This document shows positions 7,788 through 24,104 of a stretch of 35,533 nt of DNA, in pieces. The notes beneath the pieces were generated by a model, which saw only the letters and a program-made list of their open reading frames with translations, did no database searches and had not been told where the DNA came from. The translations under genes and the position numbers were made by a program. Each line of letters opens with the position of its first letter. Positions within the stretch are counted from its first letter, which is position 1. Source of the DNA: an uncultured Clostridia bacterium (lineage in GTDB: Bacteria; Bacillota; Clostridia; Christensenellales; Borkfalkiaceae); NCBI GenBank assembly GCA_946055105.1, contig CAMGEK010000007.1:1-35533 (forward strand), given 5' to 3'.

Positions 7788-7877
7788 GGAATAATTCCGT
7801 CCGCAGAGAAAAGGAGAATCCCGTCGGGGTTCTCCTTTTCTCTGCGGTCTTACCGTCGGACTTGCCGCAAGCCGCGG
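7788..7877. repeat. 90-bp direct repeat, copy 1 (left end of the fructan cluster)
   Basis: Bases 7788-7864 are identical over 77 bp to 24015-24091 in the same orientation. The match continues to 7877 with two mismatches. The core (7801-7847) is a near-perfect hairpin with a 22-bp stem including one G-U pair (left arm CCGCAGAGAAAAGGAGAA), preceded by the small palindrome CGGAATAATTCCG. No U-tract follows on either strand, so it is not a textbook terminator, though it could act as one between the convergent aminotransferase and LacI genes. The two copies flank the whole fructan gene set. Confidence 0.95.
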
Positions 7878-7910
7878 TGAACTTGCGTTGTTCCGATCTC
7901 CCGCGGGCGT

Positions 7911-8930
7911 TTACCGCGCGGTGGATTCGCGGGGGACGGGTTTCGCGCCGACGATGATCATCCGTGCGGGCGCGGCGGGGTTCTCGATCCGATGGACGAG
8001 CGTCCGAACGGTCTCCGAACCGAGAAATTCTTTGTTGACGGAAAAGGTGGTGAGGGTGGGGCGGGAAGCGACCGTCTCCGCGACGTTGTCGAATCCGACG
8101 ACCAGGACGTCGTCCGGCACGGCGACGCCGAGCGGTTTGAGCGCGTTGCAGACGGCGCGCGCGACGAAATCGTTACAGCAGATAAAACATTCGGGACGAT
8201 TGACGAGTTTGAGGATTTCCGTTGACAGCGCGGCGGGGTTTCCGTAATCGAACGTTTCGTCGCTGCACAGGACGTCGTCCGCGGCGGCGTGGGGGCAGCC
8301 TTGCGCGGCGAGCGCCGTCAGCATGCCGTGATAGCGTTCGCGGAAGCTCATGCAGTGTTCGGGATCGCCGACGAAGCAGAAGCGGGAAATCCGATACCGT
8401 TTTCTCAGCCGCAGGACGAGATCGTACACCGAACGGAAGTCGTTGACGGCGATGACGTCGAACGCGCCCGCGGCGGCGTCCTGCGCGGTGAAATCGATGA
8501 AGCAGACGGGCTTCCCGAAATTGACGAGCCTCGTGTTGAAATCCTTGTTGAAACATTCGATGGCGACGATTCCCGACACGTTGATCTCCTTAACGTAATT
8601 GGCGAAGTCGGAAAAGGGCGTGCGATCCCGATGATAGGTGTATTGAAAGAGCTCGTAATTTTTGGCGTAACAGGAATTTTCGATACCGCGGATAATCGGC
8701 ACGAAATAGTTGATGTTGTTGAGCGGTTTCCCCGAAACGAGCAGAATCCGATAGGACGGCGATGCGCCCTGCTCGGCATTGATGGATTTGTAGTTGAGCT
8801 CCCGCGCCTTATTCAGAACGAGCTCCCGCGTCTTTTCGGGAACGTAATGCCCGTTCAGCGCCTTGGCTACCGTGTTCCGCGAAAGATTCAGTTGTTCCGC
8901 AATGCTCTTGATCGTAACGGCTTTTTTCAT
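7911..8930 (-). CDS. LacI-family transcriptional regulator of the fructan operon
   Basis: A 339-aa DNA-binding protein. Residues ~5-27 form the LacI helix-turn-helix with hinge (TIKSIAEQLNLSRNTVAKALNG). The rest is a periplasmic-binding-protein-like sensor domain, with VVGFDNVAETVASRPTLTT as the typical C-terminal core. It is divergent from the fructan operon across a 270-bp control region, so a sugar-released repressor (or activator) of that operon is the natural reading, with a fructose-type or fructo-oligosaccharide effector inferred. The start ATG (8930) has GGAGG at 8937-8941. The predicted transcription start is near 8941, so the leader would be only about 11 nt, starting at the ribosome site itself. 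Its 3' end lies 33 bp from direct-repeat copy 1. Confidence 0.93.
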   Translation of the reverse strand: MKKAVTIKSIAEQLNLSRNTVAKALNGHYVPEKTRELVLNKARELNYKSINAEQGASPSYRILLVSGKPLNNINYFVPIIRGIENSCYAKNYELFQYTYHRDRTPFSDFANYVKEINVSGIVAIECFNKDFNTRLVNFGKPVCFIDFTAQDAAAGAFDVIAVNDFRSVYDLVLRLRKRYRISRFCFVGDPEHCMSFRERYHGMLTALAAQGCPHAAADDVLCSDETFDYGNPAALSTEILKLVNRPECFICCNDFVARAVCNALKPLGVAVPDDVLVVGFDNVAETVASRPTLTTFSVNKEFLGSETVRTLVHRIENPAAPARMIIVGAKPVPRESTAR

Positions 8931-8947
8931 TTTTTTCCTCCGTTTCC

Positions 8948-8976
8948 ATTATAACACAATGTTTTGAAAATAGCAA
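8948..8976 (-). promoter_or_regulatory. Promoter of the lacI-type regulator
   Basis: On the minus strand, TATAAT (plus-strand 8948-8953) is preceded by TG for an extended -10. TTGCTA (8971-8976) is a 4/6 match to the -35 at a 17-bp spacing. Confidence 0.75.
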
Positions 8977-8981
8977 CTTAA

Positions 8982-9033
8982 TTTTGTCAAATGCGCAAAA
9001 ATTCGCCGCATTTTGATTTGCAAATGCACAAAA
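8982..9033. promoter_or_regulatory. Candidate operator pair for the LacI-type regulator
   Basis: CAAATGCGCAAAA (8988-9000) and CAAATGCACAAAA (9021-9033) are a 13-bp direct repeat with one mismatch, spaced 33 bp (about three helical turns). Each is preceded by TTTTG (8982-8986 and 9011-9015), and the second contains the palindrome ATTTGCAAAT (9016-9025). They sit between the two divergent promoters, where an autoregulating LacI protein would bind. This is inferred from repetition and position only. Confidence 0.5.
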
Positions 9034-9046
9034 TATGAAGAAGATC

Positions 9047-9075
9047 TTGACACGAAACGGCGCTTTGGATATGAT
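9047..9075 (+). promoter_or_regulatory. Sigma-A promoter of the fructan operon
   Basis: Consensus TTGACA (9047-9052), 17-bp spacer, TATGAT (9070-9075). The predicted start is near 9082, giving a leader of about 120 nt. The -35 overlaps the 8-bp palindrome AAGATCTT (9041-9048). Confidence 0.9.
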
Positions 9076-9122
9076 GATACTGCAAGAAAGCCGCAGAAAC
9101 GCTCTCCGTCGGGCGTACGGCT

Positions 9123-9163
9123 CAGAAAGCTACCTTTCTGTTTTGCGTACCGCAAAACAGAAA
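9123..9163 (+). promoter_or_regulatory. Overlapping hairpins in the fructan operon leader
   Basis: CAGAAAG (9123-9129) pairs with CTTTCTG (9134-9140). The same CTTTCTG region is also part of a 13-bp perfect stem, TTTCTGTTTTGCG (9135-9147) with CGCAAAACAGAAA (9151-9163). The two helices share bases and exclude each other. The second is followed by A residues rather than U residues, so it is not a normal terminator. A role in mRNA stability or attenuation is possible but unproven. Confidence 0.6.
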
Positions 9164-9200
9164 AAAACTTAACTGAAAAAATGTAAGGAAGGTGAAAAAG

Positions 9201-11303
9201 ATGAAGAAAAGACAATGGCTGGCATTGCTCACGGGCGCGGCGATGGCGTGTTTTGCGGGGTGCTCCGCAGAGGTCGCCTCTCTTCCCGCCGACCGTGAAT
9301 CGGGCGAATTTTCGGCGCAACCGGTCGCGCTTCCTCTGAACGAACTTACGGAGCTCTCCGAGACGACGGCGACGGACTGGACGGGCTACGGCGTTTCGTT
9401 TTACAGGAACACGGCGGGAACAAGCGGATTGGAGGACGGCGTCTACAAGATCAAGGGCGAGACGGTGGACGGAACCGATTGGCATATCAAGTTTGAAAAA
9501 AACTTTTCCGGGCTCGAAGCGGGAAGGACGTACTCGATCGAATTTGCGTTCCGCTCGAACGTCGCGGGCGCGATCAGATTGGAAATCGGGGGATTGCTCA
9601 ATCGGGAGTACCCTATCGCAGAGGGCGAGAACGTTGTGACGGGCACGTTCACGATGCCTTCCGATTCGACCGAGCGGTATATCGATTTACAGCTCGGCAC
9701 GTTGCCGCAGGGGTTTGAAATTGCCGTCTCCCGCGTCACGCTCTATCAGGCGACGGCGTATCACGTCGTCGACGACTTCAACGTGTACGTGAACGAGGCT
9801 GCGGCGGCGACAAAGACGGTGGAGGAGAACGGCTGCGGAATCGAAATCGTCACCTCGCCGGACGATTATTGGAAAATCAAGTACGAGAGAACGTTCACGG
9901 GACTGACGGCGGGCGAGACGTATGCGATCGAATACGTCTTTGATTCGACCGCGGCGGGTTCGGTCAAATTGGAAATTGGAGGAGAAACGACGGATTTTAA
10001 CGTTCGGGAGGGCGAGAACGTTGTGACGGGCACGTTCACGATGCCTTCCGATTCGACCGGGTATATCGATTTACAGCTCGGAAAGCTGGCGGCGGGAACG
10101 AAGATCACCGTAAAGAGCGTGGCGCTGTTGCAGAACGGCGCGGTTCAGGAGTTGAGCGGCTTCGGCGGCTACTTCAATAACGACAACGGAACGGAAGGCA
10201 CGGCGAATATCGTCGACGGCGCGTACGTCGTCAACGCGACCAAAACGACGGGCGAGGCGTGGCATATCAAGCTCGACCGCACGGTGCAGACGGTCGTCGG
10301 CAGAACGTACAGCGTGAGTTACCGTCTCGTTTCGGATCGGGCGGGTAAGCTCGCCGCGGAGGGCGGTTCCGGCGCGACGTGGCTGGAAGTCGTCGCGGAC
10401 GAACCGACGACGCTCACGCACACGTTCAAGGCGACGGAGGAGAATACCTATCTCGCGTTGCAGCTCGGAGAATTGCCGAGCGGGTTTACGGTGAGAGTCG
10501 AGAGCGTGACGGTGGAAGAGGTCGCCTTTACGGGAATCGGCGTCGCGCTGGATTCGAGAATCCAGCTCCGCGTGACGGCGACGGACGAGATTCAAACCGT
10601 CGTGTTCGCAAACGGGAAGCTGTTCGGCGCAGAGGGGCAGAGCGTTGCAAGACAGGACGGCGTGTTCGTCTGCACGGGCATCACGCCGCAGTATCTCAAC
10701 GAGACGATCGTCATAACGGCGTTTGACGTAAGCGGCAATCAGATCGGCTCCGCGGCGGAAAAATCGGTCATGGACGTCTGCGAGATGTACGCGGCGTCGG
10801 GAGAACCGACGGAAGTGAAGCAACTTGCGGCAAACCTCATGGCGTACGGAAACGCCGCCGCCGCGCAGGAAGGCACGAGCGTGCGCGTTCTGAGCGACGA
10901 CGCCGTCGCGTTGGTGACGGAATACGCAAAACCGGAACGGGTGAGCGTTACGAAAAAGACGGACGGCAATTTCACCTGGACGGGCGCGCACCTGACGCTC
11001 ACGGACGGCGTGACCGTCGTGCTCGAATATACCTGCAACAACGCAACGGGAGTCACCGTTCAGGTGAACGGAGAGGAGATCGAAGCGGTCGGCGGAACCG
11101 TTCGGTTTGAAGTGCCTGCGGCGCAGTTGTTGGATTCCTTTGAAACGACGGTGAAAAACGACGGGAGCGTCGTGGACGAATTGACCTTCTCTTACGGCGT
11201 GACGACGTACGTTTCGAGAACGGACAACGCGCTTGTGACCGCGCTCTGGAACTATGCGAAAGCCGTCGAAACTTATCAGCAATCGATTATAACGGAGGGT
11301 TAA
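9201..11303 (+). CDS. Lipoprotein with three CBM-like beta-sandwich modules (first gene of fructan operon)
   Basis: A 700-aa exported protein. The N-terminus is a lipoprotein signal with C21 as the predicted lipidated Cys (FAGC). Three related modules of ~110-130 residues follow (about 30-175, 185-310 and 315-445), each with a W-x-I-K-[FYL] strand, a GRTYS/GETYA strand and an IDLQLG-type strand. This pattern resembles CBM4/9-type carbohydrate-binding sandwiches. The remaining ~250 residues include a CEMYAASGE...ANLMAYGNAA helix pair and further beta structure that I do not recognise as an enzyme. No catalytic motif is visible, so a glycan-binding surface protein is inferred. Start: ATG 9201 has AAGGAAGG at 9185-9192; GTG 9192 would overlap that site. 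Its stop lies 4 nt before the 42-aa gene. Confidence 0.85.
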   Translation: MKKRQWLALLTGAAMACFAGCSAEVASLPADRESGEFSAQPVALPLNELTELSETTATDWTGYGVSFYRNTAGTSGLEDGVYKIKGETVDGTDWHIKFEKNFSGLEAGRTYSIEFAFRSNVAGAIRLEIGGLLNREYPIAEGENVVTGTFTMPSDSTERYIDLQLGTLPQGFEIAVSRVTLYQATAYHVVDDFNVYVNEAAAATKTVEENGCGIEIVTSPDDYWKIKYERTFTGLTAGETYAIEYVFDSTAAGSVKLEIGGETTDFNVREGENVVTGTFTMPSDSTGYIDLQLGKLAAGTKITVKSVALLQNGAVQELSGFGGYFNNDNGTEGTANIVDGAYVVNATKTTGEAWHIKLDRTVQTVVGRTYSVSYRLVSDRAGKLAAEGGSGATWLEVVADEPTTLTHTFKATEENTYLALQLGELPSGFTVRVESVTVEEVAFTGIGVALDSRIQLRVTATDEIQTVVFANGKLFGAEGQSVARQDGVFVCTGITPQYLNETIVITAFDVSGNQIGSAAEKSVMDVCEMYAASGEPTEVKQLAANLMAYGNAAAAQEGTSVRVLSDDAVALVTEYAKPERVSVTKKTDGNFTWTGAHLTLTDGVTVVLEYTCNNATGVTVQVNGEEIEAVGGTVRFEVPAAQLLDSFETTVKNDGSVVDELTFSYGVTTYVSRTDNALVTALWNYAKAVETYQQSIITEG
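9621..10081 (+). repeat. Intragenic duplicated segment in CBM-like modules 1 and 2
   Basis: Bases 9621-9672 are identical to 10008-10059 (52 bp). The similarity continues to 9697 and 10081 after a 3-bp gap. The shared stretch encodes EGENVVTGTFTMPSDST. Surrounding module sequence is much more divergent. Confidence 0.93.
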
Positions 11304-11307
11304 GGCA

Positions 11308-11436
11308 ATGACGAAAACGTGCTATCAGACGATGCAAATTCAGGTGATCTCCTTTCAGGCGGAGGACGTGATCGCAACGAGCGGCGTCGAAACGCCGACC
11401 GACAGCTTCGACGATCCGTTCGGCGTCGGCGTTTAA
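11308..11436 (+). CDS. 42-aa hypothetical peptide in the fructan operon
   Basis: ATG 11308 follows GGAGGG (11294-11299), with an 8-nt gap to the start and 4 nt after the lipoprotein stop. The frame runs to TAA at 11434-11436. The peptide begins MTKTCYQTMQIQVISFQAED and continues VIATSGVETPTDSFDDPFGV, ending in GV. The N-terminal half alternates polar and hydrophobic residues and leads into an EDVIATSG motif; the rest is acidic and Gly/Pro-rich. It has no signal peptide or transmembrane segment. Small proteins with a similar [DE]VI-x-TSG core followed by an acidic tail are, as I recall, common hypothetical genes in gut Clostridia, but I know of no assigned function. Good ribosome site and tight packing argue that it is real. 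Confidence 0.75.
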   Translation: MTKTCYQTMQIQVISFQAEDVIATSGVETPTDSFDDPFGVGV

Positions 11437-11454
11437 GAGACGGAGGGGATCGGA

Positions 11455-11736
11455 ATGAAGAAACTGAGAATCCTGATCGCGGCGCTGACGGCTGCGCTCG
11501 CTCTTGCGGCATGCGCCGCTTGCGGCGAGTCCGCTTCCGCGCCTGCCGATCCGCCCGTTGCCGAGGAGATCGGAACGGAAAATCAGGAAAGCGGAACGGA
11601 AAATCAGGAAAGCGGAACGGAAAATCAGGAAAGCGGAACGGAAAATCAGGGAACGGACGAAAGCGGATCGCCCGACGACGGCGGCGAGAAAGACAACGGC
11701 TCTTCGGACGTGGTATTGCCGATTTTGCCGCTCTGA
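11455..11736 (+). CDS. Small repeat-containing lipoprotein
   Basis: A 93-aa protein with a lipoprotein signal (LAAC, C20 the likely lipidated residue). A short Ala/Pro region is followed by four tandem GTENQES heptads (the last degenerate, GTENQGT), then an Asp/Ser/Gly-rich tail ending VVLPILPL. The acidic, low-complexity body suggests an extended, cell-surface-tethered spacer with no enzymatic fold. GGAGGGGATCGG precedes the ATG. It lies 18 nt after the 42-aa gene and 18 nt before the sugar kinase, inside the operon. Function unknown. Confidence 0.8.
   Translation: MKKLRILIAALTAALALAACAACGESASAPADPPVAEEIGTENQESGTENQESGTENQESGTENQGTDESGSPDDGGEKDNGSSDVVLPILPL
11572..11655 (+). repeat. 21-bp coding tandem repeat (GTENQES x4)
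   Basis: Three identical 21-bp units (11572-11592, 11593-11613, 11614-11634) and a fourth diverged one (11635-11655). The DNA identity suggests recent slippage. Confidence 0.95.
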
Positions 11737-11754
11737 CGGGGGAGGGGAAACGCA

Positions 11755-12663
11755 ATGATATTGAGTATCGGAGAAATTCTTGCGGACATGATCTGCGAGC
11801 GGAGGAACGGCGCCGTCCTGTATCGGAGATGCGCGGGCGGCGCGCCGTTCAACGTGGCGTGCGCGGTCAAAAAATGCGGCGGAAAGGTCGGATTTTACGG
11901 AAAAGTGGGCGACGATTCCATCGGCAGGGCGCTCGCGGAGTACGCGCGGGAAAAGGATCTGGACGAACTGAACGTGGTCGTCGATCCCGATTCCAACACG
12001 ACGCTCGCGTTCGTCGATCTGGACGAGAGCGGGGAGCGTTCCTTCACCTTTTATCGGAAACACACGGCGGACTACCGTCTTTCGATGTCGGAGGTGCGGG
12101 AGTCGATCGGAAGAGCGGACGTCGTACATCTCGGCTCGCTGATGCTGAGCGAAGAGGCGGGGCGCGCGTTCGCCGACGAAGTCGTTGCGGAGACGAAGCG
12201 TCTGGGCAAGAAACTGAGTTTCGACGTGAATTTCCGCGAGGACGTATTCCGCGATCGGGAGACGGCGGTCAAAATCTACGAAAAGTACGTCCGCGCGGCG
12301 GACGTCCTCAAACTTTCGGAGAACGAAATCGGGCTGTTTACTTCGGCGAAAGAGACGCGGAAGGCGATGAAAGAGCTGTGCGCGCCGAATAAGCTCGTCG
12401 TTCTGACGCTCGGGAAAGAGGGCGCGGCGTACGCGTGCGACGGTAAATACGAAGCCGTTCCGACGATCGGCGTAAAACCGATCGACACGACGGGCGCGGG
12501 AGACGCCTTCTACGGAGCGCTTCTGACCGCGATTCAGGAGAACGGATACAAAGACCTGACGAGGAGCGTGTTCTTCGCGAACGTCTGCGGATCGCTGACG
12601 ACGACGCGGAGCGGGGCGGCGGAAGCCGTGCCGACGCGGGAAGAGATTCAGGCGTATTTATAA
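11755..12663 (+). CDS. PfkB-family sugar kinase, probable fructokinase
   Basis: A 302-aa ribokinase-fold kinase. It opens with the short strand and acidic residue typical of fructokinases (ILSIGEILADM), then GGAPFNVACAVKKCGG (first PfkB signature region). Near the C-terminus is the second signature DTTGAGDAFYGALL at 244-257, with D250 as catalytic base and GAGD as the anion hole. Length is normal. Placed in an operon with three GH32 fructosidases and a sugar importer, fructose to fructose-6-phosphate (or 1-phosphate) is the most likely reaction; that specificity is inferred from context and overall resemblance. The ATG follows GGGGGAGGGG. Confidence 0.9.
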   Translation: MILSIGEILADMICERRNGAVLYRRCAGGAPFNVACAVKKCGGKVGFYGKVGDDSIGRALAEYAREKDLDELNVVVDPDSNTTLAFVDLDESGERSFTFYRKHTADYRLSMSEVRESIGRADVVHLGSLMLSEEAGRAFADEVVAETKRLGKKLSFDVNFREDVFRDRETAVKIYEKYVRAADVLKLSENEIGLFTSAKETRKAMKELCAPNKLVVLTLGKEGAAYACDGKYEAVPTIGVKPIDTTGAGDAFYGALLTAIQENGYKDLTRSVFFANVCGSLTTTRSGAAEAVPTREEIQAYL

Positions 12664-12679
12664 GGGGACGGGGAAAGGC

Positions 12680-13240
12680 ATGAATGAGACGGTATGCGAC
12701 AAAAAGGCGCATAAAAAAGCGGATTTTTACAGAAAACGGATTCTGGTGATTCAGGAAAACGTCAAATTATTCACCGTGCTGACGGGCGCGGTATCGCTCG
12801 TGCTGTTGACCGTCAATCTGTGCAACGCCTTTACGGGCGCGATCGCGGGTTGGGTGACGGTTCTGCTCGACGTCGTATGGCTGGCGGTCGTATGCGCGTA
12901 CGCAACGTATGCGGTTGTATCTTCCGCCTCGAAAAAGAAATGTTTCGGAAAGATCGGCGAGATCGCTTACGGCGCGTTCCCGAAGGAATATATCCGATGC
13001 AGCGCCGAGGCGGGGTGCGCATACTTTGAACGGGGCGCGGCGCTCAGGCTGTACGAGGACGATCGCTATTACTATCTCGTCGCGGACGGGCTGGACGAGT
13101 GCGGCGCGGAATTCTGGACGCGCTATCGGTTCGGAACGGATTTCGGCGTACTCAAAACGGAAAAAAATGCGTCGGCAACGGAGACGGACGTAACTTCCGT
13201 ATTCGGGGATCCGATCAGATTAAGGAGGAAATCATCATGA
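12680..13240 (+). CDS. Hypothetical small membrane protein
   Basis: A 186-aa product that I do not recognise. Residues ~31-52 and ~58-82 are hydrophobic and would form two membrane helices with a very short outer loop, leaving both ends on the same side. The C-terminal ~100 residues are soluble and mixed, with several aromatics (EDDRYYYLV) and scattered Cys. The last codons overlap the binding-protein start (ATGA, 13237-13240), and the ribosome site AAGGAGGA for the next gene lies inside this frame, so the two genes are translationally coupled. ATG 12680 follows GGGGAAAGG. Its position between sugar kinase and importer suggests a transport- or envelope-related role, which is only contextual. 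Confidence 0.75.
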   Translation: MNETVCDKKAHKKADFYRKRILVIQENVKLFTVLTGAVSLVLLTVNLCNAFTGAIAGWVTVLLDVVWLAVVCAYATYAVVSSASKKKCFGKIGEIAYGAFPKEYIRCSAEAGCAYFERGAALRLYEDDRYYYLVADGLDECGAEFWTRYRFGTDFGVLKTEKNASATETDVTSVFGDPIRLRRKSS

Positions 13241-14616
13241 AAAAAATACTATCGATCGGCTGTACCGCGGTACTTGCGGCGGTCGTTGCGTGCGCGGGCT
13301 GCGGCAAAGACGGCGAAACCGCCGACGGCGAATTTCTGGGGTTGAAGAAAGGGGAGACGTTTACGACCGATCAGGAAATTTCACTTACGTTCACCCGTCC
13401 GACGGGGAACAACGCGCAGGAGAAATGGTGGACGGACACGATCGCGGCGTTCAACGAGGAATACGCGGGCAGAATCAAGGTGACCTGTACGACCGCGACG
13501 CGCGGCAATTCGCGCGAATACGAGCAAAAAATCAGCATCTGGGCGGGATCGGATTCCCTGCCCGACGTGCTGTACGTCGACGGTCCGTTCGTCTCCAACT
13601 ATGCGAATTCGGGCGTGCTCGTTCCCATCGACCGCTATATTTACGAGGGCTACACCGACGATTTTCTCGACTACGTCAACGATCAGAACACCTACAACGG
13701 TCGGCTCTATACGCTGAGCATCGTCGATTCCACCGTCGTGCTGTTCTATAACAAGACGGTGCTCTCGGAGGAGCGGATCGCCGTTCCGGACGAGATTGCC
13801 GACGCGTGGACGTTCGACGAGCTCAAAACGACGGCGACGGGATTGACCAAGACGGTCGGCGCAAAGAAACGGTACGGGTTGCAGATCGCGGGCGACGCGG
13901 GCGAGTGGCTGTCCTATGCGTTCACGCCGCTGTGGACGGAGGGCGTCGTCAACTCTGAGGGGAAAGTAACGACGGGGTATCTGAATGGCGACGCGGGCGT
14001 GAGCGCGGGCGAATATCTGCGCAGTCTCGTCAAGAGCGGCGCGGTGTACGCGAGCGCGACGAGCTCCGACTTCTCCGCCAAGACGCCTACGGCGTCCATG
14101 GCGTTGATGGGAACGCAGAACATCTCCGAATTTCTCGCGCTGGGCGAAGACATGTGCGATTGGGGCGTGACCTTCTATCCCGCCGACGACGAGGGGAAAA
14201 TCTCCGCGCCCTGCGGCGGCTGGACGCTCGGCATTACGAAGAACTGCGCCTCGGGGAAAACGGTCGCGGCGTCCGAGTTCCTGAAATACTGCACGTCGAA
14301 AGAGGCGAGCGAGAGCTGCGCGCGCGACACGGCGTCTCCTCCGAGCAGAAAATCGCTCTATGAAACGATGCCCGAATACTCCGATCCGAACAACGCGATG
14401 TACTCCGTTTACAGCGTGATCAAATCGCAGATCTTAACGAGCGCGCAGCTCCGTCCCAAGACGGTCGGCTACGAGGTGTTCTCCACCGAGATGTCCAACG
14501 CGTTGAAGGATATTCTTTACAGCACGGGGTACGATACGCAGGCGCAGATCAGGAACAGACTGACGACCGCGGCGACGAAAATCGACGCGAGCATCGCTCA
14601 GATCAAAATTTATTGA
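13237..14616 (+). CDS. ABC sugar importer, extracellular solute-binding lipoprotein (family 1)
   Basis: A 459-aa lipoprotein of the MsmE/MalE type that captures sugar outside the cell and delivers it to the two permeases encoded next. It has a lipoprotein signal (predicted lipidated Cys at 19 or 22), followed by the family-1 core: NAQEKWWTDTIAAFNEEY at the start, DVLYVDGPFVSNYANSGVLVPID, TVVLFYNKTV, and PCGGWTLGITKNC near the C-lobe hinge. AAGGAGGA lies 7 nt before ATG 13237. The ligand is inferred to be fructose oligomers or sucrose-like sugars from the GH32 and kinase neighbours; sequence alone does not prove it. Confidence 0.93.
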   Translation: MKKILSIGCTAVLAAVVACAGCGKDGETADGEFLGLKKGETFTTDQEISLTFTRPTGNNAQEKWWTDTIAAFNEEYAGRIKVTCTTATRGNSREYEQKISIWAGSDSLPDVLYVDGPFVSNYANSGVLVPIDRYIYEGYTDDFLDYVNDQNTYNGRLYTLSIVDSTVVLFYNKTVLSEERIAVPDEIADAWTFDELKTTATGLTKTVGAKKRYGLQIAGDAGEWLSYAFTPLWTEGVVNSEGKVTTGYLNGDAGVSAGEYLRSLVKSGAVYASATSSDFSAKTPTASMALMGTQNISEFLALGEDMCDWGVTFYPADDEGKISAPCGGWTLGITKNCASGKTVAASEFLKYCTSKEASESCARDTASPPSRKSLYETMPEYSDPNNAMYSVYSVIKSQILTSAQLRPKTVGYEVFSTEMSNALKDILYSTGYDTQAQIRNRLTTAATKIDASIAQIKIY

Positions 14617-14631
14617 CGACAAGGGGGGACT

Positions 14632-15555: not shown

Positions 15556-15556
15556 G

Positions 15557-16393
15557 ATGAGACGGAAGAAAATTTTGAAAATCGTCTTTTACGTCGTCAA
15601 TACGCTTGTGGGACTGTTGTTTCTGTTCCCGTTGCTGTTCATGTTCCTTTCGGCGTTCAATCCCGCGCGGACGCTGCCGACGCAGATCGGATCGTTCGGC
15701 GACTTTCTGCCCGAATATCTGACGGCGAGCAATCTCGTCTCCGTCTTTACGCGGATTCCGATGCTGAAATATTTCGGGAATACGCTGTTGTACGCGTTCG
15801 GAACGGTGCTCGGCGTGCTCGTCGTCAATTCGATGGCGGGTTACGCGCTCGCGAAGATCAACTTCAAAGGCAACCGCCTCATCTATAACTTCATCGTGAT
15901 CATGCTCATCATTCCGTTCGAGGGGATCACGCTGACGCTCTATCTCGTCGTAAAGACGCTCGGAATTCTCGACACGCCGTTCGCGGTCATTCTGCCGAGC
16001 CTGTTCAGTTGTTTTTATATCTTCATGTTCCGGCAGTTCTTTCTCGGCGTGCCGACGGCGCTGATCGAGGCGGCGGAAATCGACGGCTCGGGCGCGTTTT
16101 CCACCTATTTCCGTATCGTCGTTCCGACGGCGGTTCCCGTGTTTATTACCGTATTCATTCTGGAATTTATCGGAAAATGGGGAGACTATTATTGGCCGAT
16201 GCTGACGCTCACGAGCGAGACCTGGTTTAACGTGCAGATCGCGATCAAGGAATTCAGTACGGCTTCGCCCTATCATTGGGGAACGGTCATGGCGTCGCTT
16301 GCGGTCGTCACCGTTCCCGTGTTGGTCGTGTTCCTCTGCTTGCAGAAGTACTACATCGAGGGAATCGCCACGCAGGGCATCAAAGATATGTGA
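15557..16393 (+). CDS. ABC sugar importer permease 2 (MalG/UgpE type)
   Basis: A 278-aa membrane protein with six predicted helices and the EAA motif E171-AAEIDGSGAFSTYFRIVVP. The start (KILKIVFYVVNTLVGLLFLFPL) and the end (QKYYIEGIATQGIKDM; QGI...KD is a frequent MalG-type ending) fit the second permease of a CUT1 transporter. It is encoded immediately after permease 1 and ends 8 nt before the GH32 gene. It forms the translocation channel with permease 1. Confidence 0.95.
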   Translation: MRRKKILKIVFYVVNTLVGLLFLFPLLFMFLSAFNPARTLPTQIGSFGDFLPEYLTASNLVSVFTRIPMLKYFGNTLLYAFGTVLGVLVVNSMAGYALAKINFKGNRLIYNFIVIMLIIPFEGITLTLYLVVKTLGILDTPFAVILPSLFSCFYIFMFRQFFLGVPTALIEAAEIDGSGAFSTYFRIVVPTAVPVFITVFILEFIGKWGDYYWPMLTLTSETWFNVQIAIKEFSTASPYHWGTVMASLAVVTVPVLVVFLCLQKYYIEGIATQGIKDM

Positions 16394-16401
16394 GGTAAGA
16401 T

Positions 16402-17721
16402 ATGCAGAAACCGACGATTCATTTCGCGCCTGAAAAAAATTGGATGAACGATCCCAACGGAACGGTCTACGCGGACGGGATCTATCATCTGTTCTACCAA
16501 TACAATCCCGACGGCGTGGAATGGGGAAATATTCAATGGGCGTACGCCACCAGCCGCGATCTCGTCGGCTGGAAACGGGAAGGACTTCGGCTCACGCCCG
16601 ACAGGGGCGCGGGAGAGAAGTACTGTTTTTCGGGTTGCGCCGTCAGGACGGAAGAGGGATTCAAGATTTTTTATACCTCCATCGGCGAAGAGCCGGACGC
16701 CGTCCAGCATCACGCGCGGCAGCTGATCTGCGACGCGGACGAACGCTTTTGCGGGATTCGCCGCAACGGCGCGGCGATCGAGGCGGGGATTCACGGGTTT
16801 CCCGTGTCCGAGTGGCGCGATCCGTTCGTGTTCCGCTTCCGCGGCGACGCGTACATGACGCTTGCGGGGATCTCCGACGTCGGGCACATCTTTCTCTATC
16901 GCGCGAAAGACGCGTCGTTGAACGGGTGGGAATATCTCGGGATTCTGTTTACGCCCGAAGAGACGGACGACCTGCCCGAATGTCCCAACGTGGCGGTGTT
17001 CGGCGACAGGATCGCGCTGTTCTATTCGCTTGCGAAACGCAATCTCGTGCGCTACGTCGTCGGAACGTTCGACGGAAGGTCGCTTTCCGTCGAGGGCGTC
17101 GGGATCGTCGATCGCGGAACGAACTGTTTCTATGCGACCAACCTTGCGACGGGCGCCGCGGGCGAAACCGTACTCTTCGGCTGGCAGAGGGAGAGCCTGA
17201 TCGGCGCATCCTCGCCCGACGGAACGTACAGCGGCTGTCTCGCGTTGCCGCGGACCGTGCGGCTGAACGGGAACCGCCTGGAATTTTCCTTTACGGACGG
17301 ACTGAAAAAACTGTACCGCCGCGCGCTCGATTGCACGCAGGAGGCGGGAAAGACGGTCTGTCGGGCTTCCGTCGAACGCGTGCGGATCGCGTTCCGTGCG
17401 GCAGGACGGGCGAAGGCGTTCGTTCAGAAGAACAAAAAAGAGCGCGTAACGCTGGATTTCGACGGGGATCGGTTGCGGATCGGGCGCGAGAGCCTGACGG
17501 AGAACGCGGACGAACGCGTTTTGGAACTTCCGTTGCGCGGAGACGGAGCGCACGACGTCGAACTGATTTTCGACGGTACGATCGCGGAGGCGATCGTGGA
17601 CGGCGAAGCGGTCAGTTTCCGCTTCTACCGCCGCGGGCGCGCGGAGATCGTGTTTGAACAGGTCGGGGGCGCGGTTTCGGACGTGTGCGCGACCGAGCTG
17701 AACGCCGCGGACGTGCGGTAA
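16402..17721 (+). CDS. GH32 beta-fructosidase, predicted cytoplasmic
   Basis: A 439-aa glycoside hydrolase family 32 enzyme that cleaves terminal fructose from sucrose, sucrose-6-phosphate or fructo-oligosaccharides. The three clan GH-J acidic residues are present: nucleophile D17 in WMNDPNG, transition-state stabiliser D140 in EWRDP, and acid/base E193 in ECPN. The N-terminal five-bladed propeller fills about residues 1-300 and a C-terminal beta-sandwich the rest. There is no signal peptide, so it acts inside the cell on imported oligosaccharides. It comes directly after the permeases (8-nt gap) and before the lipoprotein GH32. Length is within the invertase range. Confidence 0.95.
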   Translation: MQKPTIHFAPEKNWMNDPNGTVYADGIYHLFYQYNPDGVEWGNIQWAYATSRDLVGWKREGLRLTPDRGAGEKYCFSGCAVRTEEGFKIFYTSIGEEPDAVQHHARQLICDADERFCGIRRNGAAIEAGIHGFPVSEWRDPFVFRFRGDAYMTLAGISDVGHIFLYRAKDASLNGWEYLGILFTPEETDDLPECPNVAVFGDRIALFYSLAKRNLVRYVVGTFDGRSLSVEGVGIVDRGTNCFYATNLATGAAGETVLFGWQRESLIGASSPDGTYSGCLALPRTVRLNGNRLEFSFTDGLKKLYRRALDCTQEAGKTVCRASVERVRIAFRAAGRAKAFVQKNKKERVTLDFDGDRLRIGRESLTENADERVLELPLRGDGAHDVELIFDGTIAEAIVDGEAVSFRFYRRGRAEIVFEQVGGAVSDVCATELNAADVR

Positions 17722-17741
17722 GTTCAGGAAAGGGGAAAAGT

Positions 17742-20700
17742 ATGAAAGGATTACGGAAAATCATCAGTCTGACGGCGGCGGTCGCGATGGCGTTGCCTCT
17801 GTTTACGTTCGTCGGGTGCGGCGGAAGGGGCGAGACCGATTACGAATTTGCCGCGACGGACTATACGGACAAAAGCGCGACGGAGCTGGAAGCGCTCGCC
17901 GATTACAGCGTTTTTTATCAACCGGAGGACGGGCGCGTGGGCGACGTCATGCCCTATTACGAGGACGGCGTCTATCATATCTTCTATCTGAAAGACGGCG
18001 GCGGAAGTTCCTCGCATCCCGTCTATCGGGTAGACACGACCGATTTTATTCACTACGAAGAAAAGGGGCTGGCGCTCGACGCGGGCGGCTCCAATTCGGG
18101 CGAGGCGATGATCGGCACGGGTACGGTGCTCAAAAAGGGCGGAGACTATTATTTCTTCTATACGGGACACCCCTCGACGGGTGCGGAGACGGTGCGGGTT
18201 GCGAAATCTACGGGAAGTCTCGATCGGTTTGAAAAGATCGGCGGGTTCTGTATTTCGCCCGAAGATTACGGATTCGAGAACGATTTCCGCGATCCCGAAG
18301 TCGTCTGGGACGAGGAAAACGGACGGTTTGAATGTATCGTGGCGACGCGGAAGAGCGGACGCGCCGTGCTTGCGCGGTTCTATCTCGACGCGGCGTTAAG
18401 CGTTATGGGCGCGCCCGAAATCGTCTATACCGATCCGCACGGGTTCAACATGCTCGAATGCCCCGACCTCTTCGAGTGGAACGGCAGATATTATCTGACC
18501 TATTCCGCGCAGGATCTGTCTTTGGGCGGCGACACGGCGGGAACGGCGAACAATACGCTCGCCCTGACGGGCGGCAAGGGGTGCATGTACTATCTCAGCT
18601 CCGACGATCGGAACGGACCTTGGCGGGAAATCGGCAATCCGCAGATCGACGGCAGCGTGTTTTACGCGGGGAAGACGGCGTTCGGAAGCGAAGCGATGCT
18701 CATCGGCTGGTCGGCGCAGAAGGGCGTCAATCCCGGATACGATTACGAATGGGGCGGCAATCTCGTCGCGCATAAACTCGTGCAGAACGCGGACGGCACG
18801 CTGTCCGTCACCTATCCGCAGTCTTTGGCGAGTCGGTTCGACGTCGTTCAGCCCCTTCTGACGGAGGAGAACGCATTGCTTCTCATCAGTTCCGGGGGAA
18901 CGCTCAACCCTCTGGCTTCCGAACGGCTCTCCTACCGTCTGAGCATGAAGGTGAAATTTACCTCCGACACGCAGTCGTTCGGTCTTGCGTTCGGTTTGAA
19001 AGACGACATCGATCATATCGTCAGAGTGACGGTCAATCCCTCCGCGGGAAAAATCAAGGCGCAGTACGGTTCCAACGGGGAGATGGCGGCGGGATACGTC
19101 TCGCTCGAAGCGGACAGAGAATACTGTCTGGATGTGTTCGCGGAAGGATCCAACTACGTGCTCTATCTGGACGGCGTGAGCTTTACCTTCCGCGTGAGGA
19201 ACGCGGGAAACAAGAAAGTCGCCGCGTTCGCGAACGACGGCATGGTGACTTTTTCCGAGATCGCGATGCTCGCTCCGTCCGAAGCGGACGCGGACGAGAC
19301 CGGTGCGTGCTCGCTGGAAGCGGGCGAGAGCAAAGAGGTCTCCGTCGCCGCCGTCAGAGATTGTTACGCGGGCGCTTCCGCGCTTGCGTACGCGAGCGGC
19401 GCGGTGCGGATCGAGACGCTCGACGCCGACGGAAAAGCCGTCGCGCAGACGGAGGGCAGCGGCTGTCTGTATCTGTACGGCTATACGGGGACGGAAGCGG
19501 GGGAAACGTTTACCGTGCGGATCACGGCGCGGGAACGCGCGACGGTCTTATACGCGATCGACGGCGCGCAGACGCACTACGTTCCCAAACGGACGGTCGT
19601 AACCCGCGCGGCGGAAAACCGCGGCGCGCAGATCGTCGTCGCGGAGGAGGGTTGTCATTCCTTCGACGTCGTCGCAAAGCTTGCGGACGAGAGCGTTTCG
19701 GGCAGGCTGATCTTGACCGTGAAGGGCGAGGAAGTCGCGTTTGCCGTCGTTAAAGACGGATTTGCGCGGTTGAGCGGCGCGGTCAACCTCTCTTCGGGCG
19801 ACGCGGTGACGGCGAGCGTATCGTTCGGCGATCGCATTTCGCAATACGAAGTATTGTCCGCAGTGGGAACGGGAGCGGCTTGCGAGAGCGGGCTCACGCC
19901 CGCCGACACGCGGGAACGGGAATACGACGCGCGCGCGAACTTCCCGAACGTGCAGTTCGAGGAACGGGAGACGGACGGCGGTTCCGTTTCGGAGAGCTTC
20001 GGCGCGCAGGGCGCGGGCGGTTTCGTCTATACCTACGGAAAGGCGATCGACGAAATGAAGTCGATCTCGGTGTTTAACGTCAACAGCGACGAGACGTACA
20101 ACTATAAGTATATCGAGCCTTCCGCTTCGAGCGACATCGAAGTCAAGGCGGATTTCGTCAAGACGGGCGACCGCTATATGGTCGGCGCGACCTATCTCGC
20201 GGCGAAGGGCGGCGAGCTCAAAGTCACGCTCGCGGTGGCGAACGTGAAGGCGACGGGCGGATTCGCCCTGATTCAGATCTATCGCAACCGCGAACGCGTT
20301 TCGGAGGCGATCGTCGCGGAAAATTCCGAGCGGCGGGAGATCACGGCGACGCTCGCCGTCGAGGCGGGAGACGCGATCTCGTTCGGATTCAAAAACGTCG
20401 GATACATGACCGATCTCGGCACGGCGGAAGCGAATTACGCCTTCTCCGTCGGAGCTCCCCGACCGGACAGTTTCGACGAAATGACGAAGATCGCCGACTT
20501 TAACGCCGATTTCTATACCGACGCGGCGCAAGCGAATGCGTGGAAGTACGGTTATGCGAGCAATTTCTTTGCCGACGAAAGCAAGCTGCAATTCACGCAG
20601 GCGACCGTATTCAACGGCGAAACGGGCGCGTGGGGCGCGGACGGCGTGAGCGGGATCGAGATCAAGCGGGACTGGATCTGTACGGAAAATTATTCGGACA

Positions 20701-20993
20701 ACGCGGACGTCGCGCTGGGGTACGCGTTCGGTGCAGGCGGCAGTTATGCGATCGAAGTCGCGTTCGAGGGGGAAAACGACGCGGAAACGCGGCTGGCGGC
20801 AAGGCTTGTGATCGCCGACGCGAGCGGGAACGTGAAATCCGCGATCTTTATCGGTGACGGCAAGGAGAACGTCGATTGGCGTTACGAAAACTTCGACGTG
20901 CGCGTAGACGCAGGCGACGTCGCATACCTCGTATTCTTCCGCGAGGGAGTGGGGTATCATAAGGGCAGCGTCGTCTTTAACGTCTACGAATAA
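17742..20993 (+). CDS. GH32-like surface lipoprotein with accessory beta-sandwich modules
   Basis: A 1083-aa lipoprotein (signal ending FVGC, C26). The catalytic propeller spans about residues 55-370. It has D184 in FRDPE and E239 in LECPDLF, but the nucleophile region reads RVGDVMPYYEDG (D68) rather than WMNDPNG, which marks a divergent GH32 subgroup. Residues ~385-510 form a C-terminal sandwich (YRLSMKVKFTSDTQSFGLAF). The rest (~510-1083) is several beta-rich modules; the last two (about 760-905 and 910-1083) look alike and are probably carbohydrate-binding. Exact activity (levan, inulin, fructotransferase) is not readable. The start is ATG 17742 after GGAAAGGGG; the frame is open further upstream but overlaps the previous gene. 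There is no membrane helix beyond the lipid anchor. Confidence 0.85.
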   Translation: MKGLRKIISLTAAVAMALPLFTFVGCGGRGETDYEFAATDYTDKSATELEALADYSVFYQPEDGRVGDVMPYYEDGVYHIFYLKDGGGSSSHPVYRVDTTDFIHYEEKGLALDAGGSNSGEAMIGTGTVLKKGGDYYFFYTGHPSTGAETVRVAKSTGSLDRFEKIGGFCISPEDYGFENDFRDPEVVWDEENGRFECIVATRKSGRAVLARFYLDAALSVMGAPEIVYTDPHGFNMLECPDLFEWNGRYYLTYSAQDLSLGGDTAGTANNTLALTGGKGCMYYLSSDDRNGPWREIGNPQIDGSVFYAGKTAFGSEAMLIGWSAQKGVNPGYDYEWGGNLVAHKLVQNADGTLSVTYPQSLASRFDVVQPLLTEENALLLISSGGTLNPLASERLSYRLSMKVKFTSDTQSFGLAFGLKDDIDHIVRVTVNPSAGKIKAQYGSNGEMAAGYVSLEADREYCLDVFAEGSNYVLYLDGVSFTFRVRNAGNKKVAAFANDGMVTFSEIAMLAPSEADADETGACSLEAGESKEVSVAAVRDCYAGASALAYASGAVRIETLDADGKAVAQTEGSGCLYLYGYTGTEAGETFTVRITARERATVLYAIDGAQTHYVPKRTVVTRAAENRGAQIVVAEEGCHSFDVVAKLADESVSGRLILTVKGEEVAFAVVKDGFARLSGAVNLSSGDAVTASVSFGDRISQYEVLSAVGTGAACESGLTPADTREREYDARANFPNVQFEERETDGGSVSESFGAQGAGGFVYTYGKAIDEMKSISVFNVNSDETYNYKYIEPSASSDIEVKADFVKTGDRYMVGATYLAAKGGELKVTLAVANVKATGGFALIQIYRNRERVSEAIVAENSERREITATLAVEAGDAISFGFKNVGYMTDLGTAEANYAFSVGAPRPDSFDEMTKIADFNADFYTDAAQANAWKYGYASNFFADESKLQFTQATVFNGETGAWGADGVSGIEIKRDWICTENYSDNADVALGYAFGAGGSYAIEVAFEGENDAETRLAARLVIADASGNVKSAIFIGDGKENVDWRYENFDVRVDAGDVAYLVFFREGVGYHKGSVVFNVYE

Positions 20994-21012
20994 ATCAATC
21001 GGTCGGAGACGA

Positions 21013-21028
21013 GACGGGTTCGCCCGTC
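21013..21028 (+). other. Small intergenic hairpin before the levanase gene
   Basis: GACGGG-TTCG-CCCGTC, a perfect 6-bp stem with a stable tetraloop in the only longer gap (64 nt) of the fructan operon. No U-tract follows, so it is more likely a processing or stability element than a terminator. Confidence 0.55.
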
Positions 21029-21057
21029 GGACGGAAACAAAATTCGGAGATAACGTG

Positions 21058-24021
21058 ATGAGGGTATCTTTCAAAAAGAAAAGCGCGCTTCTGTTGTCGG
21101 CGGCGGCATTGGCGACCGCCGCGCTGGGGCTCGGAACGATGAAACTCGGCGCTTCGGCGCAGTCCCCGTACGGGGAGGCGTACCGCAACCGACTCGCCTA
21201 TTCGGCGGCGCAGGGCTGGAACAACGATCCCAACGGATTGCTCTACGTCGACGGTACTTGGCACATGTATTATCAATACAGCTATAACGCCGCTTCGGGC
21301 GAAACGTACAACTATTGGAAAGACGTCGGCTGGGGGCATGCCGAAAGTAGCGATCTCGTGCATTGGGAAGAGCAACCCGTCGCCATTCCCGCCTATCAGA
21401 CGGCGGACGGCGCGGAGTACGGCATGATGTTTTCGGGGAGCGCGGTCTATGACGAGAACAATACGAGCGGGCTGTTCGATACGGACGGCGCGGGGAATCT
21501 TCTTTCGGGACAAGGGATCGTCGCGATCCTGACGCAGCCGCTGGAATCGGCGGGCGGGCAGAGGCAGATTCTCGCGTACAGCAAAGACGGCGGGCGGAGC
21601 TTTGATCTTTACGGCGAAATTCTCTCCGCGCGCGAGGACGGAGGCCTTGGCGACGGAGAATTCCGCGATCCCAAGGTGAGCTGGAACGCGGAGCTCGGAA
21701 AATGGCTGATGGTCGTCGGCGGCGGTTCGGTGAGAATGTACGCGTCGGAAAATCTTCTCGACTGGGACTATCTCGGCGAGACGGGGTATTGGGGCGAATG
21801 TCCCGATCTTTCCGCCTATACGCTCGAAAGCGGGGAGACGAAGTACGCGCTCGTGATCTCCCCGGAGGACAAGGAGAACAGTCATATCTACAACGGCACG
21901 ACGCGCGATACGGCGTACTATCCCGCCGAATATTACGTCGTGGGCAGTCTCGACGAAAGCGGGCTGTTCGTCGGGGAAACGCAGATCGCGCGGCTGAGCG
22001 AAGGGATCGACAGCTACGCTTTCCAGTCCTTCAACAACGCGCCCGACGGCAAGGTTTACGGCGTGAGCTGGTCCGGGAGCTGGGAAACGGTGGAGGAATA
22101 CGCGGGCTTCCGCGAAGCGTATAACGGAGGCATGACCGTGGTCTGCGAGATGAATCTCGTCGCCGACGGAAACGGGTACCGTCTGACGAGAACGCCCGTG
22201 GACGGGTATGCGGCTTTGCGTTCGGAAGAACTGTTTTCCGCGCAGTCCCTGCGGTTGGAAGCGGGCGAGGACGCGCTGTCGGGCGTTCGCGCGACGGTGG
22301 CGGATCTGGAACTGACGCTCGATTTTTCTGCGGGAGACGCGACGGAAGCGACGCTTCTGTTGCGCTCGTCAACGGACGAACGCATTCGGTTGTCCTATTC
22401 TGCGGAGACGCAGACGCTTACGCTCGATCGGTCGTCAAGCTCGCTGCTTGCGGCGGAAACGTCGCTCTACCGTACGACTTATTCTGCGGCAGCGCCTCTT
22501 CGGGACGGAAAACTCGACTTGCGGATTTTGTGCGACCGCGCGTTCGTGAGCGTATTTGCAAACGGCGGCACGGCGAGTTTCTTCTCCGCCGTGTTCCCTG
22601 CGGCGACGTCGGACGGCATGTCGCTCACCGCAGACGGCGCGATCGTCGTCACGGGCACGGTGCATCGGATGAACGGAATTTTCTCCGCAACGGAGAACGG
22701 CGATCTGCTCGTCTCCGCGAAAAAAATCGATACGACGGTCGGGAGCGAAGAGACGATCCTCGTCTCCTCTTACGCGACGGGATTCGATCCGTCTCGGGTG
22801 TCCTTTGCGGTCGCGGAGGGCGCGGAGCTGATCTCGCTTCGGTCGGACGGCGCGCGGGCGACGCTGACCGCGCTCGCCGCGGGATATGCAAAAGTCAGAA
22901 TTTCTTACGGGACGCAAGAGACGGAGACGGAACTGTATCTCTATGATAACGGATTTACGAGCGATCTCGATTATACGCTCAACCGCAGAGGATTTTTCTA
23001 CGTCGGAAACGACGGATTGCATTTCGCCACAGGCGAAAAGGACGCGTTCCGATTCAGCGAAACGATTGCGGAGGACTTCCGCTATTCGGCGCGGCTCGTG
23101 CGTAAAGCGGGCGCGCAGGCGGCGGCGCTCGTGTTCGGCGTTAGCGACAACCTGACGGAATTCTGGGTGGTTACGGCGGATTGGAAAGAGGGGAAGGTGA
23201 AATTGTGGAAATCGGGCGTGGGCGATCTCGCCGTGGCGAGGTATTATTTCGCGTCCGACGCCACGGAACTCAGCGTGACCGTTCTGAACGGTACGGCGCG
23301 CGTCTGTCTGAACGGCTCGGATACGGAGATTCTCTCCTGTCCGCTTGCGGACTATCGCGGCGGCGGGTTGGGGCTCAACGTCTATAACGGCGAAACGGTA
23401 TTTTCCGACGTCTCTTTCGCCGCCCTGTCCGAAACGGCGGGCGGGCTTGCGCTCGGCGACGTGGAGATCGCGGGGATCGTGAACGTGACGGACGGAAACG
23501 CGATTTTGTCCGCGGCGGACTATACCTTCCGCGACGGCGTGCTCGCTCTGACGGACGAATACCTGCGGACGCTGGTCGGAAAGACGACGTACACGATACA
23601 GGTGATCACTTCCGCGGGAACGTTCTATTGGGACGTGCAGACGAAGTTTGCTTCCGTCTCCGTATCGGCGGAAAAGACGGAAACGTACGGCGACGAGGAA
23701 ATTTTGTTCACGCTGGGGCGGGACACGACGGTAACGCGCGTTTTGTTCGGCGATCGGGAAACGGCGTTTACGCAGTCGGACAGAACGGTGCGCGTCTCTG
23801 CGGACGAGCTGAAAGAATTGCCGACGGGAACGTATTTCGTCACGTTCTATACGGAGAACGGAAGAGCGGAGACGCGCGTCGCCGTGCTCGAAAAGGATCT
23901 GACGGACGTCAATTTATCCAAAACCGTCAGCATCGTTTCGATCTGCGCCGTCGTCGGCGTTCTTCTGATCGGCGCGGGAACGTATCTGATCGTAATGAAA
24001 AAATCCGGACGAAAGGAATAA
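21058..24021 (+). CDS. Secreted, membrane-anchored GH32 levanase/inulinase-type enzyme
   Basis: A 987-aa extracellular fructanase. The N-terminus is a basic signal peptide, likely cut after ASA (34/35). The GH32 propeller spans ~45-360, with nucleophile D57 (WNNDPNG), D204 (FRDPK) and E247 (GECPD). A GH32 sandwich follows at ~370-540. Next are an Ig-like (Big-type) stretch at ~555-640, a concanavalin-like module at ~645-800 reminiscent of the levan-binding CBM66 of B. subtilis SacC, another Ig-like region, and one C-terminal membrane helix (957-980) with a positive tail KKSGRKE. There is no LPxTG. ATG 21058 is 7 nt after GGAGA; GTG 21055 is a weaker choice. A 64-nt gap with a small GACGGG-TTCG-CCCGTC hairpin separates it from the previous gene. 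The last codon and stop lie inside direct-repeat copy 2. Confidence 0.92.
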   Translation: MRVSFKKKSALLLSAAALATAALGLGTMKLGASAQSPYGEAYRNRLAYSAAQGWNNDPNGLLYVDGTWHMYYQYSYNAASGETYNYWKDVGWGHAESSDLVHWEEQPVAIPAYQTADGAEYGMMFSGSAVYDENNTSGLFDTDGAGNLLSGQGIVAILTQPLESAGGQRQILAYSKDGGRSFDLYGEILSAREDGGLGDGEFRDPKVSWNAELGKWLMVVGGGSVRMYASENLLDWDYLGETGYWGECPDLSAYTLESGETKYALVISPEDKENSHIYNGTTRDTAYYPAEYYVVGSLDESGLFVGETQIARLSEGIDSYAFQSFNNAPDGKVYGVSWSGSWETVEEYAGFREAYNGGMTVVCEMNLVADGNGYRLTRTPVDGYAALRSEELFSAQSLRLEAGEDALSGVRATVADLELTLDFSAGDATEATLLLRSSTDERIRLSYSAETQTLTLDRSSSSLLAAETSLYRTTYSAAAPLRDGKLDLRILCDRAFVSVFANGGTASFFSAVFPAATSDGMSLTADGAIVVTGTVHRMNGIFSATENGDLLVSAKKIDTTVGSEETILVSSYATGFDPSRVSFAVAEGAELISLRSDGARATLTALAAGYAKVRISYGTQETETELYLYDNGFTSDLDYTLNRRGFFYVGNDGLHFATGEKDAFRFSETIAEDFRYSARLVRKAGAQAAALVFGVSDNLTEFWVVTADWKEGKVKLWKSGVGDLAVARYYFASDATELSVTVLNGTARVCLNGSDTEILSCPLADYRGGGLGLNVYNGETVFSDVSFAALSETAGGLALGDVEIAGIVNVTDGNAILSAADYTFRDGVLALTDEYLRTLVGKTTYTIQVITSAGTFYWDVQTKFASVSVSAEKTETYGDEEILFTLGRDTTVTRVLFGDRETAFTQSDRTVRVSADELKELPTGTYFVTFYTENGRAETRVAVLEKDLTDVNLSKTVSIVSICAVVGVLLIGAGTYLIVMKKSGRKE

Positions 24022-24104
24022 TTCCGTCCGCAGAGAAAAGGAGAATCCCGTCGGGGTTCTCCTTTTCTCTGCGGTCTTACCGTCGGACTTGTCGCAAACC
24101 GCGG
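24015..24104. repeat. 90-bp direct repeat, copy 2 (right end of the fructan cluster)
   Basis: Same sequence and orientation as 7788-7877 (77 bp identical, then two mismatches in 13 bp). The hairpin core is at 24028-24074. The repeat starts inside the levanase gene and supplies its last Glu codon and TAA stop. The hairpin just after the stop may end the operon mRNA or protect its 3' end. Confidence 0.95.

Follow-up and report, generated by a model that had tools for sequence, protein, structure and literature searches.

A 16-kb fructan locus between two near-identical copies of a terminator-type hairpin in an uncultured Clostridia bacterium

The fructan locus and its bracketing repeats

The metagenome-assembled genome (MAG) GCA_946055105.1 (G000), from an uncultured Clostridia bacterium of the family Borkfalkiaceae, comprises 1.39 Mb (1,393,585 bases) in 97 contigs and is 90.65% complete. 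The stretch analysed here, referred to as the window, is the whole of its contig C7 (35,533 nucleotides) and carries a fructan locus that runs from a LacI-type regulator gene to a levanase-like gene, between two direct copies of a hairpin-bearing repeat. The first of the three glycoside hydrolase family 32 (GH32) enzymes in the locus, gh32a, is 98% identical to a public-record protein labelled Candidatus Gallimonas sp., a Clostridia genus. The repeats and the hairpins in and beside them are as follows.

7784–7877, no strand: left repeat copy (core 7788–7877), from repeat search and alignment
24011–24104, no strand: right repeat copy, overlapping the last codons and stop of the levanase gene, from repeat search and alignment
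7801–7847, no strand: 22-bp palindromic hairpin of the left copy, with an A-tract and a T-tract on both strands, from folding
24028–24074, no strand: 22-bp palindromic hairpin of the right copy, 6 nt past the levanase stop, from folding
7735–7778, plus strand: separate, unrelated terminator-type hairpin of the aminotransferase gene, from folding and a hairpin scan

The two copies share one orientation, lie 16,227 bp apart from start to start, and are identical at 91 of 94 positions (97%). The three mismatches (left/right) are C/A at 7787, C/T at 7865 and G/A at 7871, and the longest run without a mismatch is 77 bp (7788–7864). The left copy sits between the convergent aminotransferase (amt) and LacI genes, beginning 63 bp past the amt stop (7718–7720) and ending 33 bp short of the LacI stop (7911–7913, minus strand). 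The right copy begins within the final levanase codons, contains the levanase stop TAA (24019–24021), and ends upstream of a sigma-70-like promoter match at 24184–24212. The copies lie at the 3’ ends of the two outermost genes of the locus, lacI on the minus strand and the levanase gene on the plus strand. A preliminary description of this DNA had reported 88 of 90 matching positions over 7788–7877, 77 bp of them in an identical run, and had placed the repeats exactly at the outer edges of the regulator-to-levanase gene set; the figures are exact and the bracketing is borne out. The bracketed genes and their neighbours are listed below with their Pfam matches.

383–6524, strand not given: uvrB-GNAT-uvrA, left flank, upstream of amt
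6551–7720, plus strand: aminotransferase (amt), left flank, from the Pfam scan of the open reading frame (ORF) 6398–7720
7911–8930, minus strand: LacI-type regulator (PF13377, PF00356)
9192–11303, plus strand: protein with the carbohydrate-binding domain CBM_4_9 (PF02018)
11755–12663, plus strand: PfkB-type sugar kinase, a fructokinase by context (PF00294)
13099–14616, plus strand: ABC solute-binding protein (PF13416)
14632–15555, plus strand: ABC permease 1 (PF00528)
15557–16393, plus strand: ABC permease 2 (PF00528)
16402–17721, plus strand: GH32 enzyme gh32a (PF00251)
17685–20993, plus strand: GH32 enzyme gh32b, start codon uncertain (PF00251)
21055–24021, plus strand: levanase-like GH32 enzyme gh32c with a C-terminal membrane-anchor-like tail (PF00251, PF08244)
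24297–25634, plus strand: acyltransferase-like gene, right flank (PF01553 below cut-off), followed by CaX, two ABC exporters and ClC

The absence of an integrase or transposase from the bracketed block, also proposed earlier, agrees with the Pfam scan, which found no recombinase or transposase domain in 25 window ORFs. These were drawn from 100 ORFs of at least 90 aa, of which the other 75 are mostly overlapping frames, ORFs below 90 aa being left out; the nine main proteins inside the bracket lack a Pfam recombinase domain, small ORFs not having been scanned. No RNA family reached its gathering score in the window, and no tRNA was found there. In 2-kb windows, the GC content of the bracketed block (0.54–0.61) overlaps that of the flanks (0.55–0.64).

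The window also contains other repeats. A 65-bp tandem array at 10–447 occupies the left end of the contig and is likely an assembly break. Tandem repeats of 21 bp lie between the CBM and kinase genes (11564–11647), a perfectly identical 52-bp repeat lies inside the CBM gene (9621–9672 and 10008–10059), and a 42-bp tandem duplication (98% identical) lies inside the first ABC exporter gene (27886–27969).

A putative bidirectional terminator

The palindrome has an inner stem, GGAGAA-CCC, set between AAAA and TTTT tracts, and TTTTCTCT follows the inner stem on either strand. Because the inner stem has these tracts around it, either strand reads as an intrinsic terminator. The 94-nt left copy folds at -57.2 kcal/mol on the plus strand and -54.1 on the minus strand, and the right copy at -50.4 and -48.3; in no case did any of 200 shuffles fold as well. 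A GC-rich stem, a U-rich tract on both strands and a position at gene 3’ ends are all present by sequence and fold, and the hairpin is regarded here as a putative bidirectional intrinsic terminator.

The levanase 3’ end bears on the direction of copying. Levanase relatives in 12 other genomes have a membrane-anchor-like segment, a basic tail of varying length and a stop of their own, and the nearest of them by sequence (G065, 56%) differs by no more than a few residues in where it ends. Since the relatives end at about the same position with their own stops, the stop within the right copy probably belongs to the levanase gene itself. The earlier statement that the right copy supplies this stop therefore holds only in part: the stop does lie in the copy, but it appears native rather than brought by an inserted element. 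With a native stop, the left copy appears to carry the last levanase codons, and it probably derives from the levanase 3’ end.

Copy number and distribution of the repeat

A search of the whole MAG returned two copies of the element, both at the fructan locus, and no third. Among 61 genomes (the MAG itself, 36 of the same genus and 24 from other families of the order), the element occurs in its own genome only. Extending the search to 103 genomes of the genus, with each species represented by a single genome, gave the full element in none of the 102 others; fragments of 19–38 nt were matched at E<=0.01 in six of them, and inspection of all six revealed the palindrome in none. The preliminary description had offered a dispersed hairpin element, or alternatively a common 3’ hairpin of this genome, and neither proposal accords with two copies in the MAG and none of full length among the 102 relatives.

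Further searches covered a collection of genome contigs (genome_contigs), viral contigs, plasmids and phages, all of which may omit records of the window’s own genome. An arm-loop-arm pattern of the hairpin matched a single stretch of genome_contigs, from Flavipsychrobacter and with a different loop and flanks, and matched no viral contig; a 211-bp query (7700–7910) had no plasmid or phage match at E<=1e-5. Transfer from another lineage was rejected as a source of the repeat, the Flavipsychrobacter pattern match being the only one and the viral contigs, plasmids and phages yielding nothing.

Base rates were obtained from 1,318,312 of the 1,393,585 bases of the MAG (78 of 97 contigs). Strong hairpins, defined as stems of at least 18 with one mismatch allowed and coding status unchecked, number 50, and the pair at the fructan locus is the only near-identical pair among them; beyond it, similarity is limited to an 18-nt match between hairpins on C13 and C50. 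The repeat pair is for this reason not attributed to chance: long hairpins of this style are normal in the genome, and two copies of one are not. The longest stem of the 50, with 29 paired positions, lies on C10 (L160) at 13124–13186.

A scan for repeats of at least 45 bp and at least 85% identity, excluding same-contig pairs less than 1.5 kb apart, gave 45 alignments, 28 of which have both partners within 200 bp of a contig end. Only C7, C17 and C30 contain an internal qualifying pair. On C17 (L167), a 116-bp direct repeat (3243–3358 and 6951–7066) surrounds an ORF that by eye resembles an IS3-type transposase; the stop of an upstream ORF (793–3246) falls in its first copy, and the repeat is taken as coding-derived because the second copy lies inside an ORF. 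On C30 (L180), repeats at 60–154 and 4024–4170 (68–95 bp, 88–91% identical) lie around three genes (576–3942) that by eye form a rhamnose operon. They may form another sugar operon of this genome that is bracketed by repeats. ORFs of a crude list overlap these repeats, and the left one is near the contig end. Separately, C35 and C36 (L185, L203) have 12,683 bp in common at 100% identity in reverse complement and are either redundant contigs or a true inverted duplication.

Genomic context in related bacteria

Comparison of the flanks with related genomes places the locus where a rearrangement has brought together blocks that lie separately in relatives. G027 keeps the order uvrB-GNAT-uvrA-amt, as does, starting from GNAT, the part of G074 that was read, and both keep acyltransferase-CaX-ABC-ABC-ClC unchanged. 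The two blocks lie on different contigs in these genomes and have other neighbours at the positions of the window’s junctions, which shows that a rearrangement took place here. An empty site was sought and none is offered by the relatives read, as the two flanks are not adjacent there; there is consequently no simple empty site for comparison. In four further genomes, amt and CaX share a contig and orientation at about 52, 60, 21 and 63 kb (G004, G009, G016 and G024, respectively), compared with 18 kb in the window. This common order may be ancestral, with the intervening stretch lost or moved in this genome. Over 20 kb read past amt in G016, gene matches in the MAG, where found, fall on C1, C3, C14, C20 and C38. 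The MAG lacks orthologues of two neighbour genes from relatives: one gave only partial matches, 35% at best and taken as ABC-domain paralogues, and the search with the other, run without a positive control, returned nothing. A 481-aa ORF without a Pfam match (33127–34572) lies downstream of ClC in the window, and a relative of it lies upstream of the acyltransferase gene in G027 and G074.

The bracketed set is not a conserved unit in the relatives examined, judging from gene content and identity. Searched for at E<=1e-60, gh32c is present in 14 of the 396 genomes from the order, the MAG itself among them. A close full-length relative of gh32a (49%) is present in one of 60 other genus genomes (G082), in addition to a fragment at a contig end of G065; apart from short pieces, the remaining matches are at most 39% identical over the conserved domain and are taken as other GH32 enzymes. 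Relatives of lacI (57–62% identical) accompany gh32c in seven contexts (G346, G394, G330, G170, G228, G181 and G339), where the permeases are only 26–30% identical to those of the window. In G274 and G211, by comparison, the binding protein, permeases, gh32a, gh32b and PfkB occur together with a more distant gh32c. The fructan locus (7911–24021) thus looks like a mosaic, with lacI and gh32c of one arrangement and the importer, gh32a, gh32b and pfkB of another. A second GH32 locus of the MAG (C1, 47–65 kb; L102/L103) has importer genes and a PfkB kinase 48% identical to that of the window.

A scan of 14 contexts, seeded on exact 18-base matches, revealed no bracket around relatives of the cluster. 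The negative is weak, since just six of the contexts (G394, G330, G170, G228, G181 and G339) have lacI and gh32c together with usable flanks, several contexts being cut by contig ends. Three of the 14 (G394, G181 and G339) do contain a repeat pair of at least 36 bp spaced more than 2 kb apart, located between lacI and gh32c and not outside them. In protein clusters at 90% identity, amt has 2 sequences on 2 contigs, gh32a 6 on 1, and CaX 2 on 1; these do not point to greater rarity of the locus than of its flanks, the numbers being small and cluster membership not being strain presence.

Assembly of the repeat region

In the 78 contigs, shared sequence of exactly 55 bp occurs at eight pairs of contig ends, and shared sequence of 53, 54, 56, 57, 60 or 77 bp at none, which indicates an assembler k of 55. 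At this k, the 77-bp core collapses into a single node that has two entries and two exits, and its 23 55-mers have 46 occurrences in all, each occurring twice. The contig presents amt-repeat-block-repeat-acyltransferase; amt-repeat-acyltransferase together with a circle or tandem array of the block would give the same graph.

Origin of the repeat pair

The explanation that fits best, and that is probable though well short of secure, is a recent local duplication of the fructan locus’s own bidirectional terminator, which would close the locus at both ends. The right copy, the 3’ end and terminator of the levanase gene itself, would be the original, and a local rearrangement would have left a second copy beside lacI. 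The locus may, for example, have been duplicated in tandem and most of one duplicate then lost, or a template switch may have occurred while the rearrangement brought the two flanks together. The copy beside lacI may have been retained because a palindromic terminator functions in either direction. RecA exchange between the copies, deleting the 16 kb, releasing it as a circle or amplifying it, would then be a likely side effect. Support comes from the confinement of the element to two copies at the locus, with other genus genomes holding only short fragments, from the fit of the hairpin to the genome’s terminator style (50 strong hairpins in 1.318 Mb), from the levanase relatives with stops of their own, from the placement of the locus at a rearranged junction, and from the overlap in GC content between block and flanks.

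Several observations pull the other way. The core hairpin is missing from the list of a generic terminator scan of the window, probably because its T-tracts lie inside a longer stem; that scan gave 20 sites against a mean of 22.8 in shuffles and so says little for or against the hairpin. The coding overlap that gives the copying direction amounts to only ~10 nt, GC content falls to 0.544 just inside the left repeat, and no intermediate, such as a tandem array or a remnant of a second locus, was seen. The join itself rests on the k=55 assembly, in which read pairs must have decided the path.

The last point is the basis for an assembly artefact, in which the real arrangement is amt-repeat-acyltransferase with a separate circle, a tandem array or a mixture of strains. 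The contig-end sharing and the doubled 55-mers permit it. The differences at 7787, 7865 and 7871, however, are distinct between the copies and therefore denote two true copies, and usual read pairs span more than a graph node of 77 bp and normally resolve it, leaving an artefact rather improbable. More doubtful still is a mobile repeat of the miniature inverted-repeat transposable element (MITE), repetitive extragenic palindromic (REP) or attC-like kind, inserted twice. The element is palindromic, essentially intergenic and about 90 bp long, as such a repeat would be, but it has two copies only and not the many of a dispersed REP- or MITE-type element, a candidate set aside on that count. Terminal inverted repeats are absent (5 of 20 positions matching), there is no target-site duplication at the right copy and only GAAC on both sides of the left one, attC boxes (consensus GTTRRRY / RYYYAAC) occur in neither copy on either strand, and the stop codon is probably the levanase gene’s own. 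A mobile repeat is largely refuted by these features.

Two further readings give the repeats a role in moving the block. In one version, the locus is an excisable or amplifiable cassette that RecA recombination reversibly removes or multiplies, with the variation selected for. The bracket is exact, and the repeats are long enough for the homologous recombination proposed earlier: the 77-bp core exceeds the minimum of 23–27 bp for RecBC and lies within that of 44–90 bp for RecF, as quoted in one report (PMC12074656). RecA exchange between the copies is physically plausible. The same report describes excision and reconstitution of a Salmonella wzy locus between two 113-bp direct repeats (PMC12074656), and on C30 the presumed rhamnose operon is repeat-flanked on both sides as well. 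Weighing against a cassette, the sequences examined include no excision junction, circle or block-free strain, the spacing is 16 kb compared with about 2.6 kb in wzy, and the protein clusters, small as they are, with six members for gh32a and two each for amt and CaX, betray no frequent loss; the cassette is unlikely. In another version, the block was acquired as a unit when a circle with the locus and one repeat integrated by homologous recombination at a resident copy. The patchy distribution of gh32c and of close full-length gh32a relatives is in its favor. No resident copy is present in the 102 other genus genomes, though, block and flanks overlap in GC content, the block, a combination of two gene arrangements, is not seen as a unit elsewhere, and plasmids and phages gave no match, so that acquisition, too, has little to recommend it.

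Local duplication of the terminator therefore remains the preferred account, and the finding is real and of a known kind, a modest curiosity and not a new mobile element. It is conceivable, if rather far-fetched, that the duplicated terminator acts as a recombinase-free switch, RecA exchange excising, restoring or amplifying a 16-kb sugar-use regulon, with C30 as a second case. Should excision or amplification of the block prove real, ordinary recombination at one of its own terminators would let a gut bacterium acquire or shed an entire pathway for fibre use, with no mobile element involved. Otherwise, the locus is a neat terminator duplication at a rearranged site, and repeats longer than the assembler k in MAGs deserve read-level proof.

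Comparison with known systems

GH32 fructan utilisation loci of Clostridia contain a LacI regulator, an ABC importer, a sugar kinase and GH32 enzymes. The window has the same kinds of genes, but joins two arrangements that occur apart from each other in those relatives that were read. Between convergent genes, bidirectional intrinsic terminators have a palindromic stem with an A-tract before it and a T-tract after it on both strands, and the fructan repeat has the same layout of stem and tracts at gene 3’ ends; it differs from the other strong hairpins of the genome, which are unique in sequence, in occurring as two near-identical copies. REP, BIME and REPIN elements are intergenic palindromes at gene 3’ ends that are able to seed duplications. 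The fructan repeat is likewise a palindrome at gene 3’ ends, but with only two copies, and REPs usually exceed 100 copies per genome (PMC2817692).

The closest parallel in arrangement is the wzy locus of Salmonella Typhimurium, which has 113-bp attL and attR direct repeats. Its excision and reconstitution are described with the mechanism left open, deletion to one copy and dependence on attL are shown, and the repeats are without symmetry (PMC12074656). The fructan unit differs in its 16-kb size, in the palindromic terminator-type hairpin of its repeats and in that its excision is hypothetical. The two systems are alike in being chromosomal loci with two direct repeats of near 100 bp precisely at their edges, between which recombination would leave a single copy.

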